A DNA stretch of 64,000 nt, taken from the NCBI GenBank assembly GCA_003650125.1, contig QNFX01000006.1:1-64000 (forward strand), in the 5' to 3' direction. The stretch is from Campylobacterota bacterium. Lineage in GTDB: Bacteria > Bdellovibrionota > Bacteriovoracia > Bacteriovoracales > Bacteriovoracaceae. Position numbers and translations under genes: made by a program. How positions within the stretch are numbered: the first letter of the stretch is position 1; each line of letters opens with the position of its first letter. Shown here one piece after another: positions 6,291 to 21,822 of this stretch. The notes under the pieces were generated by a model, which saw only the letters and a list, made by a program, of their open reading frames with translations, was not told the DNA's origin and did not search any database.

Positions 6291-9178
6291 TAAGAGTCTT
6301 TTTGACTACATTTATGCTTTTAATACCGGCCTTTGGTTGGGCGAAGAGCTTTCAAATAGACAGCATTAATATTGTCTGTGATCAGACGAATATCTGTAGA
6401 CGCTTTGAGGATAAATTAGGGTCTTTAAAAAAGGAAATTTTAACCCCCAAAAAATTACAAATTAGATTAAAGCCTTACCTCTTTGATAGATCTATTGCTA
6501 CATTTTCTTATGAAGTTAGAAACACACATATTGGAGTGGTGTTAAAAGTCGATATCACCAGTAGAAAAATAATAAATAATATTTCCTTTGAGCTGCCAGC
6601 AGAGAGCATCAATACCAGTAGTTTAAAAAACCTTCTCCCTTATGATGAAAACGAATATCATAATCCAGGTCTAGATGCTGAAGCAGAGGCCAAAGTATCT
6701 GAATTTTTAATTAATGCGGGGATTGCAGATCCTATGGTAACCATCGAGTTAATACCATCAGATGGTATAGTTGATTTGAAATTTAAAATTAATTATACAA
6801 AAACTATTTTAATAAAAGAGATTAAAATTAATTACATTGGCAACAAGGATATAACTTCAATAAACAATCGTTTAAATGATTTAAAAGATACTATCTATAA
6901 TAAAAAAGAAATAAATATTGTAACGAACGAAATATCTAACGAAATATACGAGGAAGGATATTTCTTTTCGGAACTGGAATTAATTTCGCCTAAATTTAAA
7001 AATGGTGATGATGGGATAACTCTCGAGTTCAACCTTGATCTAAGTGTTAAGGTGAATCTTAGCTTTTATGGGAATAGGGTGGCTTCAAGAAGTGATTTGT
7101 TTAGTTTAGTCAAAGAGAATATTAGAAGCATGGGGACAACTCTTGAGCCAGAATTAATAGTTAAAGAGATTGAATCCTTCTATAGAGATAGAGGTATATA
7201 TTATAGTAAGATTAAGTTTTCTAAACGAGAGGGCAAAACTAAAGCAGGCGGGGTACTTCACTCCTATTTCTTTGAGATTAAAGAGGGATCTAAAATAAAG
7301 ATATCCTCATTAAGTTTTCAGGGAAATAGGCTTGTAAACAATAAAGTATTGAAAAACTTATACCAAGAGAAAGGTACTTCTTTGGCGAGTAGCTACTTTT
7401 TGGATGAAAGCTTTTTAGCTAAATTTAAGCAACTGATTCAGGAAGAATATCTTAAGCATGGTTTTATATCCACCAAGATTTCGGATCCGATTATAGAAAA
7501 ACAAGAGAATTCAACAAATGCTTCAGTTTTATATCGAATAAAAGAATCTCTGATTTGTGAACTTAAGGCGATAAAATATTTTCGTCCCGTAGGTGAAGAG
7601 GTTAAAGCATTTATTTCGAAGGCCCTTTCCAATAAAGTGGGTAGTGCATTTAATATTTTAAAATTAGAGGAGGAATTAAAAAAGATATTAGAAGTAACTC
7701 GAAATAATGGTTATTACTTTTCACAAATCCTTAATAGTGAAGATCGTAATCTATTAAAATTCTCTAAAGATTATAAAAGTGTAGAGATTATCCTTGATTT
7801 GGATCTAGGGAAAAAAACTTACTTTAATGAATTACAAATTTCAGGAAATATTAAGAGTAAGGATAGAGTGATTCAAAGAGAGTCTTTCTTTGTAACAGGA
7901 GACATCTTAAAATATTCGAATGTGGAATTTTTTAAAGGACGTATATCCTCTCTAGGGCTTTTTAAGACAGTAAAGATCTCACCTATCATTGCAGATTCAT
8001 GGAAAGATGAAGGTGAATTCAAACAATCAGTGAATTTATTAATTGAAATTAAGGAAAGAGATTCTATAACTATGGCAGTAGGTCCTGGTTTTAGAACTGA
8101 TGCTGGGGCCAAACTTTCCTCAAGAATTAGATTTTTAAATATTGGTGGGATGAATCGTAGGATCAACCTTCTTGCCAATGCCAACTATAGAATATCTTTG
8201 CAGACTCTTGATGAAGAGAGGAGAAATAAGGGTTTAAAACTTTTAGAATATAGGTTTAGGGTAGATTATGAAGAACCGTATTTTTTCCATTTGCCATTGG
8301 AGTTTGATATTTCAGGAACTGCCTCTCGAAACCGATACTTTTCATTTGATGCTGATATTATGACTGGGACTATGGCATTTTCCAAAGATTTTTCTAAATC
8401 ATTTAGTTCCTCGATTAAATATCAATATGACAATATCAAGCAATTTAATGCCAGTTCTAGTAAGGATGAAGGAAATTTTGTCGTAGGTGCTATAACTCCT
8501 AGTCTCACCCTAGATTTTAGAGATAATCCAGGAGTTGCTAGAAAAGGGTCTTGGTATGGCCTGTCTTTGGAGTTTGCTAATCCGGGGCTCGGTTCAATAA
8601 ATATTGAAAATTTTGAAGTAAACTATCTAAAAATACTCTCTAGAAATAAATGGTATCTTAAACTGGCAGAAAAATGGGGGTTAGCAGCATCTTTGGTCTT
8701 TGGTTGGGAGAAAAATTTCGCCGATGATCCCTTATTAAATGAGGATGGAGATCCTAGAGTTGTTAATGGCCAGGTAATTACCAAGGGATATATCCCCTCG
8801 GTTAAGGTTTTTAGGATTGAAGGTATTGATATTGTTAGGGGATTTCAGGAGACTGAGATCAATCGGCTGCCCAATACTGGTGATGACATCTTAAATTATT
8901 TCGTTAATAATACGGCCTACTACTCAGTATTTAAATTTGAAGCGAGGCATTACTTTAAGGATAGCTTTGTTATTGCCGGATTTTTTGATGCTGGACGTGT
9001 TTTTGTCAATAAATTCAATATCTTAGATCTTCGGACCTCTGCGGGACTAAGCTTTAAGTTGCTCACCCCAGTAGGCTCACTAGATCTAGATTTTGGGGTT
9101 AAGCTGAAACGTGAAAGCTATGATGATGGGGACACAGACAGCTTTGGTCGCTTCCATCTCCTTATTGGCTATTTCTAA
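6287..9178 (+). CDS. tamA: Omp85-family outer-membrane assembly protein (TamA/BamA-like)
   Basis: A 963-residue protein with a Sec signal peptide (residues 1-20, ending in FGWAKS). Several POTRA-like modules follow (about 20-560), recognisable from repeated patterns such as LSFYGNRVASRSDLFSLV and LSFQGNRLVNNKVLKNLY. A C-terminal bacterial surface antigen beta-barrel (about 600-963) carries the lid-lock signature VRGF near residue 850 and ends in phenylalanine, as outer-membrane barrels do. Because it directly follows tamB with an ATGA overlap, TamA is the better reading, although its length and number of POTRAs also resemble BamA. The ordinary bamA could be elsewhere in the genome. Confidence 0.85.
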   Translation: MIRVFLTTFMLLIPAFGWAKSFQIDSINIVCDQTNICRRFEDKLGSLKKEILTPKKLQIRLKPYLFDRSIATFSYEVRNTHIGVVLKVDITSRKIINNISFELPAESINTSSLKNLLPYDENEYHNPGLDAEAEAKVSEFLINAGIADPMVTIELIPSDGIVDLKFKINYTKTILIKEIKINYIGNKDITSINNRLNDLKDTIYNKKEINIVTNEISNEIYEEGYFFSELELISPKFKNGDDGITLEFNLDLSVKVNLSFYGNRVASRSDLFSLVKENIRSMGTTLEPELIVKEIESFYRDRGIYYSKIKFSKREGKTKAGGVLHSYFFEIKEGSKIKISSLSFQGNRLVNNKVLKNLYQEKGTSLASSYFLDESFLAKFKQLIQEEYLKHGFISTKISDPIIEKQENSTNASVLYRIKESLICELKAIKYFRPVGEEVKAFISKALSNKVGSAFNILKLEEELKKILEVTRNNGYYFSQILNSEDRNLLKFSKDYKSVEIILDLDLGKKTYFNELQISGNIKSKDRVIQRESFFVTGDILKYSNVEFFKGRISSLGLFKTVKISPIIADSWKDEGEFKQSVNLLIEIKERDSITMAVGPGFRTDAGAKLSSRIRFLNIGGMNRRINLLANANYRISLQTLDEERRNKGLKLLEYRFRVDYEEPYFFHLPLEFDISGTASRNRYFSFDADIMTGTMAFSKDFSKSFSSSIKYQYDNIKQFNASSSKDEGNFVVGAITPSLTLDFRDNPGVARKGSWYGLSLEFANPGLGSINIENFEVNYLKILSRNKWYLKLAEKWGLAASLVFGWEKNFADDPLLNEDGDPRVVNGQVITKGYIPSVKVFRIEGIDIVRGFQETEINRLPNTGDDILNYFVNNTAYYSVFKFEARHYFKDSFVIAGFFDAGRVFVNKFNILDLRTSAGLSFKLLTPVGSLDLDFGVKLKRESYDDGDTDSFGRFHLLIGYF

Positions 9179-19999: not shown

Positions 20000-20028
20000 A
20001 TTTTATGCGTAAGTTTTGCGTAAGTCAA
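20000..20028 (-). promoter_or_regulatory. recA promoter with overlapping 9-base direct repeats
   Basis: On the minus strand TTGACT (20028-20023) and TAAAAT (20005-20000) are 17 bases apart. The spacer and its edges contain two identical copies of ACTTACGCA (20025-20017 and 20014-20006), exactly 11 bases apart, which also reads as TTAC-N7-TTAC. This is where a LexA-type repressor would be expected to bind. The -35 overlaps the pgpA stop codon, and the leader would be about 130 bases. Confidence 0.6.
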
Positions 20029-20525
20029 GCGACCTTCGGCAGGATATTTAGATATGAAATACCCAAGTAAACAAGTCCTGCAAAAAGACCGGCCACTACA
20101 TCGTCTAGCATTATTCCCAAACCATTCTTCATGTTTTTATCGATGTGGCCCACAGGACCTCTCTTAACGATATCAAAAAAACGAAACAAGACTAGGATTA
20201 TCAAGTAAGAGACCCAGTGATGATCAGATATAAAGGCCCATGCCACAAAAACCCCAAGGAATTCATCTATGACTATCCAAGAGGGGTCATGAACCTGATA
20301 AATTTTTTGTATATGATTTATGAGATAAATTGAGATGGTAGTCAAAATAACTAAAAAAGGGACAAAGAGAAAAAATGGAATGTTTGCATTGCCAAAAGGA
20401 TAAAGGATGGCAATTGTCGCAACGCTCGCAAAAGTTCCTGGGGCCTTAGGGAGAAAACCAATGCCTCCCATAGATAAGAAAAAGACTTCAGGTTTTTTTA
20501 AGGATGGAGGATGTTCTTTTGTCAT
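20025..20525 (-). CDS. pgpA: Phosphatidylglycerophosphatase A
   Basis: 166 residues with three or four membrane segments. PgpA dephosphorylates phosphatidylglycerophosphate to phosphatidylglycerol in the inner membrane. Family signatures: FLSMGGIGFLPKAPGTFAS at the N-terminus, HDPSWIVIDEFLGVFVAW near residues 78-95, and NGLGIMLDDVVAGLFAGL near the C-terminus, with the acidic residues expected for metal binding. It ends inside the recA promoter and is divergent from the RelA/SpoT-like gene, with only 43 bases between them. Confidence 0.92.
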   Translation of the reverse strand: MTKEHPPSLKKPEVFFLSMGGIGFLPKAPGTFASVATIAILYPFGNANIPFFLFVPFLVILTTISIYLINHIQKIYQVHDPSWIVIDEFLGVFVAWAFISDHHWVSYLIILVLFRFFDIVKRGPVGHIDKNMKNGLGIMLDDVVAGLFAGLVYLGISYLNILPKVA

Positions 20526-20568: not shown

Positions 20569-21822
20569 ATGGAAAGACCAAGTTATTTATCAAAATATTT
20601 ATTTGACTGGGAAGTACTGGAAGTATTTCTTGAGGGAAAGTCTGCTCTAGACACTGCGCATTTCGTAGGTTCTGTTAATGATAAAAAGGAAGCAGGAAAT
20701 CTTCTTAAAGGATATGGATTTAATCCTACTGATCCTGTTTTGATGGCCGAATTATTTGGAAACTTTCAGGAGGCGCTGCAGTTCATAAAGAGGTATTTTT
20801 TAAAGGAAGGTACCCCTTTAGGTGTTGATCTTAAAATACCTCCTTCTATCTTTATGATTACAGATGTTTGTGAGCTTTTTGTCATGGCATCTGCAGAAGA
20901 AAAAGATATAGAAAAAAAACTTTGGGCAGAAATAATTTTAAAGGTTCTCCACACAATAGTACATGTTGATAGAGATTGGAGATCGTCCTATTTTTCTGTA
21001 ATTCAAACTCAAGTTTTTGATCGTTTTTATAAACAGATATTTCGTGATTCAGAAAATGAACTTTATGTTGCAGAAAAAAGAGATTCAGAAGATAGAATTC
21101 CTTTAATCGATTTTTCAGTAAAATCTCGTAAATCTCGCGATAGTGTTATTTTAAAGTTATTACATAAGGCAGATAATGTTGCAGAAGAGCTTTTTGATCG
21201 AGTTGGTGTAAGGTTTATTACAAAATCCTCTTTTGATAGCTTACAGTTGATAAAATTCCTAACAGAGCATAACATTGTAATGCCTCAAAATATAAAACCT
21301 AGTCGTTCTATAAATACCATTTTTGATTTAGAAAAATTTAAAAATTCCTTTAATGACCTTATAGAGAAGGCATCTCAGGAAAATTACAATGAAAAAAGTT
21401 TTCTAAAAAAAATAGATGAAATAGCGGGTGATTGCCAATTTAGTGAAAATAATATTTCTAAAAATGTTCATTCAAGCAAGGCCTACAAGTCTATTCAGTT
21501 TACTGGTAGGCAGCTAATTAGATATCAGAATCCTTTTTTCGAAGAATTTAATTCCTTAAGGCAAGATGCTAAAGCAGAGACAGGAAATCCTCTGGCGCAA
21601 AAGATATTATCTATGGATATGTCACTTATCGCTAGAGATATTCGTTTTTTCTTCCCTTATGAAGTTCAGATTGTTGATGGTAAAAATAAACAGATAAATG
21701 CTGAAGGCGATGCCTCTCATCAAGAATACAAGAAGGGACAGCAATTAACTTCACTTAAGCGTTTATTTAAACCATTAATGGAACTGAAAAAAATAAGCAT
21801 AGATGAATCATTTATTAATTAG
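20569..21822 (+). CDS. Divergent RelA/SpoT-like nucleotidyltransferase-fold protein (TIGR04552-like)
   Basis: 417 residues, no signal peptide. I believe it belongs to the deltaproteobacterial TIGR04552 family of unknown function (from memory, moderate). Its second half carries, in order, motifs that parallel RelA/SpoT synthetases: SVILKLLHKADN then ELFDRVGVRFI (Asp210, Arg215), AYKSIQFTG (Tyr306), EVQI (Glu365), and NAEGDASHQEYKKG (379-390). In (p)ppGpp synthetases the matching Asp and Glu bind metal and the Tyr stacks on the guanine. The usual RT after EVQI is missing (VDG instead), and the spacing between motifs is longer. Whether it makes (p)ppGpp, another nucleotide, or nothing is open. 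It stands alone and overlaps the convergent FHA gene by 15 bases. Confidence 0.7.
   Translation: MERPSYLSKYLFDWEVLEVFLEGKSALDTAHFVGSVNDKKEAGNLLKGYGFNPTDPVLMAELFGNFQEALQFIKRYFLKEGTPLGVDLKIPPSIFMITDVCELFVMASAEEKDIEKKLWAEIILKVLHTIVHVDRDWRSSYFSVIQTQVFDRFYKQIFRDSENELYVAEKRDSEDRIPLIDFSVKSRKSRDSVILKLLHKADNVAEELFDRVGVRFITKSSFDSLQLIKFLTEHNIVMPQNIKPSRSINTIFDLEKFKNSFNDLIEKASQENYNEKSFLKKIDEIAGDCQFSENNISKNVHSSKAYKSIQFTGRQLIRYQNPFFEEFNSLRQDAKAETGNPLAQKILSMDMSLIARDIRFFFPYEVQIVDGKNKQINAEGDASHQEYKKGQQLTSLKRLFKPLMELKKISIDESFIN

Follow-up and report, generated by a model that had tools for sequence, protein, structure and literature searches.

Divergent and probably active RelA/SpoT-superfamily synthetases in a Bdellovibrionota protein family without assigned function

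One gene of the window, by which we mean the whole stretch of 64,000 nucleotides analysed here, encodes a 417-aa protein (the window protein) that shares homology and fold with the synthetase (SYNTH) domain of RelA/SpoT homologues (RSH). The family to which it belongs keeps the RSH catalytic residues in order and strongly conserved, carries altered base-recognition motifs and has been inherited vertically within Bdellovibrionota. The reading we favour, to which we assign a probability of roughly two in three, is that of a divergent and probably active RelA/SpoT (SYNTH) member, forming a single-copy core gene of the phylum beside the bifunctional Rel. A more tentative extension, which may well prove wrong, is that this phylum-wide core enzyme uses a pyrophosphate acceptor that is neither GDP nor GTP, yielding an undescribed alarmone-like nucleotide or an RNA or metabolite modification in parallel to the stringent response.

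A family without function joins the RelA/SpoT superfamily

The window protein is matched over its full length by two NCBIfam models, TIGR04562 (403.5 bits, E 8.1e-121; cut-off 140) and TIGR04552 (387.9 bits; cut-off 125), both without an assigned function, a functional name or a link to RSH proteins; the link of this family to the superfamily is what the present analysis adds. A Pfam scan of the window protein gave RelA_SpoT (PF04607) as its sole match, at residues 188-244 and below the curated cut-off (E 5e-4; 20.8 bits against 27), and found no HD, TGS or ACT domain. The first-pass annotation had called the family listed only as hypothetical, which is nearly right: it has an NCBIfam entry, one that lacks a function, and a Pfam match that stays under the cut-off.

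For the family alignment we took 45 members spread over many families of the phylum; their identity to the window protein, whose residue numbering applies to all counts below, is 28-77%. When members were scanned one by one (E<=1), PF04607 was matched weakly by 39 of the 45 (best E 7.6e-9), while any other family was matched by at most four; one member exceeded the PF04607 cut-off once its two stretches were summed (36.7 bits). Searched against all PDB sequences, the family profile returned four matches, weak (E 0.08-1.2) and all of them RelA/SpoT-type proteins, and phmmer with the single window sequence returned no PDB match. An insert-free core profile aligned with the Rel SYNTH domains of the same phylum co-linearly along its length, scoring 35.8 against a best of 21.1 among 60 column-shuffled controls. 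With the untrimmed family, hhalign aligned the C-terminal motif alone to Rel, because the inserts break the alignment.

Structure prediction led to the same superfamily. The AlphaFold2 model of the window protein (pLDDT 91.4, pTM 0.85) and the AlphaFold model of a shorter, 365-aa homologue (locus L065; pLDDT 90.9) were compared with PDB using Foldseek. Ranks 1-46 for the window model were all RelP, RelQ, Rel or RelA chains (best E 9.5e-4), followed by a mitoribosomal assembly protein that is unrelated (E 0.92), and ranks 1-46 for the shorter homologue were likewise all RSH (best E 3.1e-4). The Foldseek support is modest, with E-values of 1e-4 to 1e-3, large rmsd and whole-chain TM scores of 0.2-0.3 on the query and 0.4-0.5 on the small synthetases; modest E-values and large rmsd are expected because the core is divergent, with inserts and an extra domain. 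The predicted models establish the SYNTH fold and, given their large rmsd, do not fix the fine geometry of the pocket.

We regard it as almost certain that the window protein is a SYNTH protein of the RSH superfamily. The first-pass annotation had proposed an unrecognised RelA/SpoT-like enzyme carrying the (p)ppGpp synthetase core motifs in order, and had suggested comparison with RelSeq and SAS structures. Homology and fold support the enzyme reading, the motifs are all present in that order with a likeness beyond chance in the Pfam, core-profile and Foldseek comparisons, and the PDB matches at ranks 1-46 consist entirely of RelA, Rel and SAS synthetases.

Table 1. Position and basis of the gene, its parts and its divergent neighbour in the window
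Feature	Position	Strand	Remarks and basis
TIGR04552-family gene, divergent RelA/SpoT-type (SYNTH) synthetase	20569..21822	+	417 aa + stop
N-terminal all-helical domain, residues ~1-172	20569..21084	+	model secondary structure, conservation
syn1 equivalent, K185-K200 (K188, S192, K196), putative ATP phosphate grip	21121..21168	+	aligns with RVKSxxSixxK of RSH
syn2 equivalent, DRVGVRFIT, with D210 (putative metal-binding) and R215	21196..21222	+	co-linear with D..AFRI of Rel
Insert 1, residues ~236-298, helical, PSRSxN (N249 invariant)	21274..21462	+	alignment, model secondary structure
syn3 equivalent, YKSIQFTGRQL, Y306 as base-stacking candidate, R314 invariant	21484..21516	+	conservation and core-profile alignment
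Insert 2, residues ~322-355, helical, between YKSIQ and EVQI	21532..21633	+	alignment, model secondary structure
syn4 equivalent, FFFPYEVQIVD, E365 and Q367 kept, R of QIRT lost (QIxD)	21646..21678	+	conservation
C-terminal motif GDASHQEYKKGQ...R, spacing same as GxAAHWxYK of Rel	21706..21762	+	conservation, profile alignments
pgpA (phosphatidylglycerophosphatase A), divergent neighbour	20025..20525	-	PF04608, 140 bits

Catalytic residues are kept and guanosine signatures are changed

Residues K185, K188, K196, D210, G213, R215, N249, N299 and R314 are invariant in all 45 members, as are P363, E365, Q367, G380, Y387, Q391 and R398; H384 (44/45), K388 and S192 (41/45 each) are nearly so. The RSH core spacing is near-identical, with K-x3-S-x3-K at the ATP site, D-x4-R, E-x-Q and G-x3-H-x2-Y-K. 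The first-pass annotation had singled out a metal-binding Asp210 and Glu365 and a guanine-stacking Tyr306. All three lie at places equivalent to those of Rel in a co-linear core; the two acidic residues are kept throughout, in a metal-binding role that is itself putative, and the Tyr, which occupies the position of the base-stacking Tyr of GYxSLH, is present and nearly invariant but not fully so (Y in 39 members, F in 5, H in 1).

As far as the sequences tell, the family departs from both signatures of a GDP/GTP-specific (p)ppGpp synthetase for which we looked, SxH in syn3 and QIRT in syn4. The former is replaced by (S/A/F)-x-(Q/K), with S308-x-Q310 in the window protein and the His kept in one of 45 members, and the latter by QIxD, which reads QIVD in the window protein. 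The loss of RT after EVQI, noted at the outset, is therefore real (D at position 370 in 42/45). SxH is the guanosine-recognising pair, and SxH and the Arg of the syn4 QIR differ between ppGpp and ppApp synthetases (PMC12226406). Because neither guanosine signature is there, we file the family as a variant within the RSH superfamily and not as a (p)ppGpp synthetase.

The N-terminal domain has the family-invariant residues G23, Y49, G50, P91 and H128 and the near-invariant S25, D28, W119, H132 and D136, and is acidic (median net charge -7). That it might be a decayed HD hydrolase was considered and rejected, since its profile scored no better than shuffles against the Rel HD domain profile. Insert 1 is family-wide, with 50-66 residues in all members, and together with its PSRSxN motif replaces the RFKDYIxxPK stretch that RSH proteins have between syn2 and syn3. 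An expansion between YKSIQ and EVQI had also been claimed; this insert 2 is present in the window protein but not family-wide, being missing in the 365-aa homologue and in some members such as those of Bdellovibrionia type. With a length anywhere between 0 and 43 residues, it marks lineages and cannot define the family.

A vertically inherited core gene beside Rel

Of the 291 genomes sampled from the phylum, Bdellovibrionota, 261 contain TIGR04562, nearly always as a single copy (208/222 when counted in good-quality genomes); it was absent from all 14 control genomes. Among the genomes of the phylum that lack it, many are small and belong to a few families. A single-sequence contig scan retrieved close relatives only, the three named ones labelled Bdellovibrionales, Bacteriovoracales and Deltaproteobacteria. 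Across 25 genomes, pairwise identities of the TIGR04562 protein track those of Rel (Spearman 0.81, with 0/2000 Mantel permutations as high), and we therefore conclude that inheritance is vertical; the median pairwise identity is 35%, against 52% for Rel. A long Rel was present in 33 of the 34 genomes checked. The window's genome has one (G000:C2), a separate gene whose open frame spans 731 aa and in which HD and SYNTH are both matched, and this Rel is the genome's sole match to HD_4 (PF13328).

Other RSH-like proteins were observed along the way. A second, different one of 446 aa (L116, 449-1789, minus strand; G021:C2) has an apparent signal peptide and the syn3 sequence GYTSLN, with SxN for SxH; from its sequence it is possibly a secreted alarmone-synthetase-like protein in Bdellovibrionota. 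Genomes G048 and G229 hold a two-domain small alarmone synthetase of ~345 aa, consisting of SYNTH and an uncharacterised C-terminal region (L114, 343-1380, minus strand; L115, 566-1600, plus strand).

Beyond the phylum sample, a homologue was found at 7875-9092 of locus L118 (MW495066.1, 115540-132622), a record submitted under the title 'Microcystis phage MaAM05'. The homologue lies beside glyS, secDF, acpS and gatD; the record also carries a peptidoglycan transglycosylase gene and looks like bacterial chromosomal DNA, not phage, from outside Bdellovibrionota. When 97 genomes of the phylum were searched for the GlyRS beta subunit of this record, without a positive control, nothing matched, and the family thus probably extends to another bacterial lineage. 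A plasmid search gave no match and a viral contig search no relative; a viral fold library gave weak matches only, the best being a phage RelA/SpoT protein.

Gene neighbourhoods

The gene and pgpA stand head to head in the window, and pgpA is nearby and divergent in 11 of 24 loci (cluster 1). The window region also holds recA, a recX-like gene, an FHA-domain gene, recG and a greA-like gene (recA, recX, recG and greA named by eye from sequence). A PlsC-type acyltransferase gene (PF01553) lies near in nine loci, all of the shorter-protein type and mostly directly downstream, and overlaps the TIGR04552 gene by 4 bp in L066; in other loci an [Fe-S] oxidoreductase pair is found downstream. The possibility that the gene shares a function with pgpA and plsC, both lipid genes, was considered and set aside, as the adjacency differs between classes; it amounts to a weak hint.

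In several other families of the phylum, a set of two genes stands in tandem behind the TIGR04552 gene (L069, 7831-10970, and equivalents; clusters 10 and 8), coding for a 394-aa protein without a Pfam match and a 654-aa protein with Fer4, Fer2_4 and BFD-like domains. Directly upstream of the gene, in several loci with the shorter protein type, lies a gene for a small protein with a lipoprotein-like start and no Pfam match (L065, 6278-6967, and equivalents; cluster 7, six loci).

We found no recurrent antitoxin-like partner among the 24 neighbourhoods and no PADLOC match for the TIGR04552 gene. Together with its presence in 261/291 genomes and its vertical inheritance, this leaves the idea of a toxin-antitoxin or defence gene without support.

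A family member in an evolved Bdellovibrio line

In our literature search TIGR04552 was named in one paper (PMC9888234) and TIGR04562 in none, and no paper linked small alarmone synthetases and Bdellovibrio. In that study, the TIGR04552 gene DOE51_RS08710 carried a 1-nt deletion at a frequency >75% in line B of Bdellovibrio sp. NC01, evolved over 40 passages on Pseudomonas, and four single-nucleotide indels in coding genes are said to cause frameshifts (PMC9888234). The deletion is a predicted frameshift, so loss of function would be tolerated in line B culture; loss was perhaps favoured there, and hitchhiking with other line B mutations is possible. That the gene can be dispensable in culture of an evolved line counts against our favoured explanation.

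Proposed activity and competing readings

As in RSH enzymes, K188 and K196 would hold the ATP phosphates, D210 and E365 would bind Mg2+ and Y306 would stack on the acceptor base, in an ATP-dependent 3'-pyrophosphokinase that passes pyrophosphate from ATP to the 3'-OH of the acceptor. Residue invariance makes it likely that the protein is catalytically active. The least certain step, to which we give about even odds, is that the acceptor would be something other than plain GDP or GTP. Three features lead us to infer this: the loss of SxH in syn3 and of the Arg in syn4, the insert with the invariant N249 that stands in for the RFKDYIxxPK loop, and the new helical N-terminal domain, with its invariant H128, which may cap or select the substrate. 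This candidate substrate change is read solely from motif differences, and swapping such motifs in an Apk2 enzyme left its specificity unswitched (PMC12226406), a point against the favoured explanation. The product would then act in housekeeping, as a signal or a modification, and not as a toxin.

An ordinary (p)ppGpp synthetase is the best placed of the alternatives, and still an unlikely one. The protein would then be the equivalent of a small alarmone synthetase with extra domains, using GDP/GTP despite the altered motifs and supplementing Rel, whose HD domain, the only one of its kind in the genome, could degrade the product. The fold, the full set of catalytic residues and the mostly kept Y306 all agree with it, but the syn3 His is lost in 44/45 members and QIRT has become QIxD, both being tied to guanosine recognition (PMC12226406), and the KDYIxxPK loop has been lost.

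If the protein had kept the SYNTH fold but lost catalysis, and served as a nucleotide-binding regulator or scaffold, this would explain the large divergence (the median identities of 35% and 52% given above) and the changed G-site motifs. We consider this reading improbable, since K188, K196, D210, R215, E365, Q367, G380 and Y387 are kept in 45/45 members, which is the pattern of selection for catalysis. Marginally less probable again is pyrophosphorylation of RNA 3' ends (tRNA CCA), as in tRNA-targeting toxSAS, by a protein acting as a housekeeping regulator. Such activity exists in the same superfamily (PMC11559606), and altered guanine-specific motifs are what a non-GDP acceptor would lead one to expect; yet the N-terminal domain is acidic, against the basic CCA groove described for toxSAS, an antitoxin-like partner is lacking, and the gene is near-universal in the phylum and vertically inherited. 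Finally, a chance likeness of motifs in a protein of another fold, for which the sub-threshold Pfam match of the window protein and the empty phmmer search might be cited, is contradicted by the PF04607 scans, the PDB profile, the core profile and two Foldseek runs, which independently give the RSH synthetase fold alone, and is very improbable.

A function-less family with one copy in nearly every sampled genome of a predator-containing phylum is now linked with the alarmone synthetases. It has retained the catalytic machinery and changed the guanine-recognising parts, which poses a testable question: what is pyrophosphorylated? A new nucleotide signal, should that be the product, would enlarge the small set of known products of the superfamily (ppGpp, ppApp, modified tRNA), and the family would be one of its few housekeeping rather than toxic members. 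The high-frequency 1-nt deletion in the evolved predator line offers a ready link to growth on prey.

Comparison with known systems

With toxSAS (FaRel2, PhRel2, CapRel) the family has a single SYNTH domain in common; it differs in having no adjacent or fused antitoxin and no PADLOC match, and in being phylum-wide and vertically inherited where toxSAS are patchy and mobile. The (p)ppApp synthetases (Apk2tox; Tas1) belong to the same superfamily and deviate at the same syn3 and syn4 positions. The Apk2 signatures are GxN at syn3 and YH at syn4 (PMC12226406); neither occurs in the 45 members, which have (S/A/F)x(Q/K) and x-D instead, and the TIGR04552 gene comes without a toxin delivery domain or immunity gene. 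The SYNTH domain of long Rel (RelSeq 1vj7, 24io; the Rel of the window's own genome) shares the co-linear core and the identical G-x-x-x-H-x-x-Y-K spacing; compared with long RSH (Rel/RelA/SpoT), the window protein is devoid of HD, TGS and ACT and is encoded by a separate gene that coexists with Rel. The best structural matches to the family models are RelP and RelQ (S. aureus RelP 6ex0, B. subtilis RelQ 5ded), which share the ATP-site lysines, the catalytic Asp and Glu and, mostly, the Tyr. Identity to the window protein is ~10-15%, with SxH and QIRT altered in the latter, and unlike RelP and RelQ the TIGR04562 family carries an additional helical domain at its N terminus, together with insert 1 and, in many cases, insert 2.
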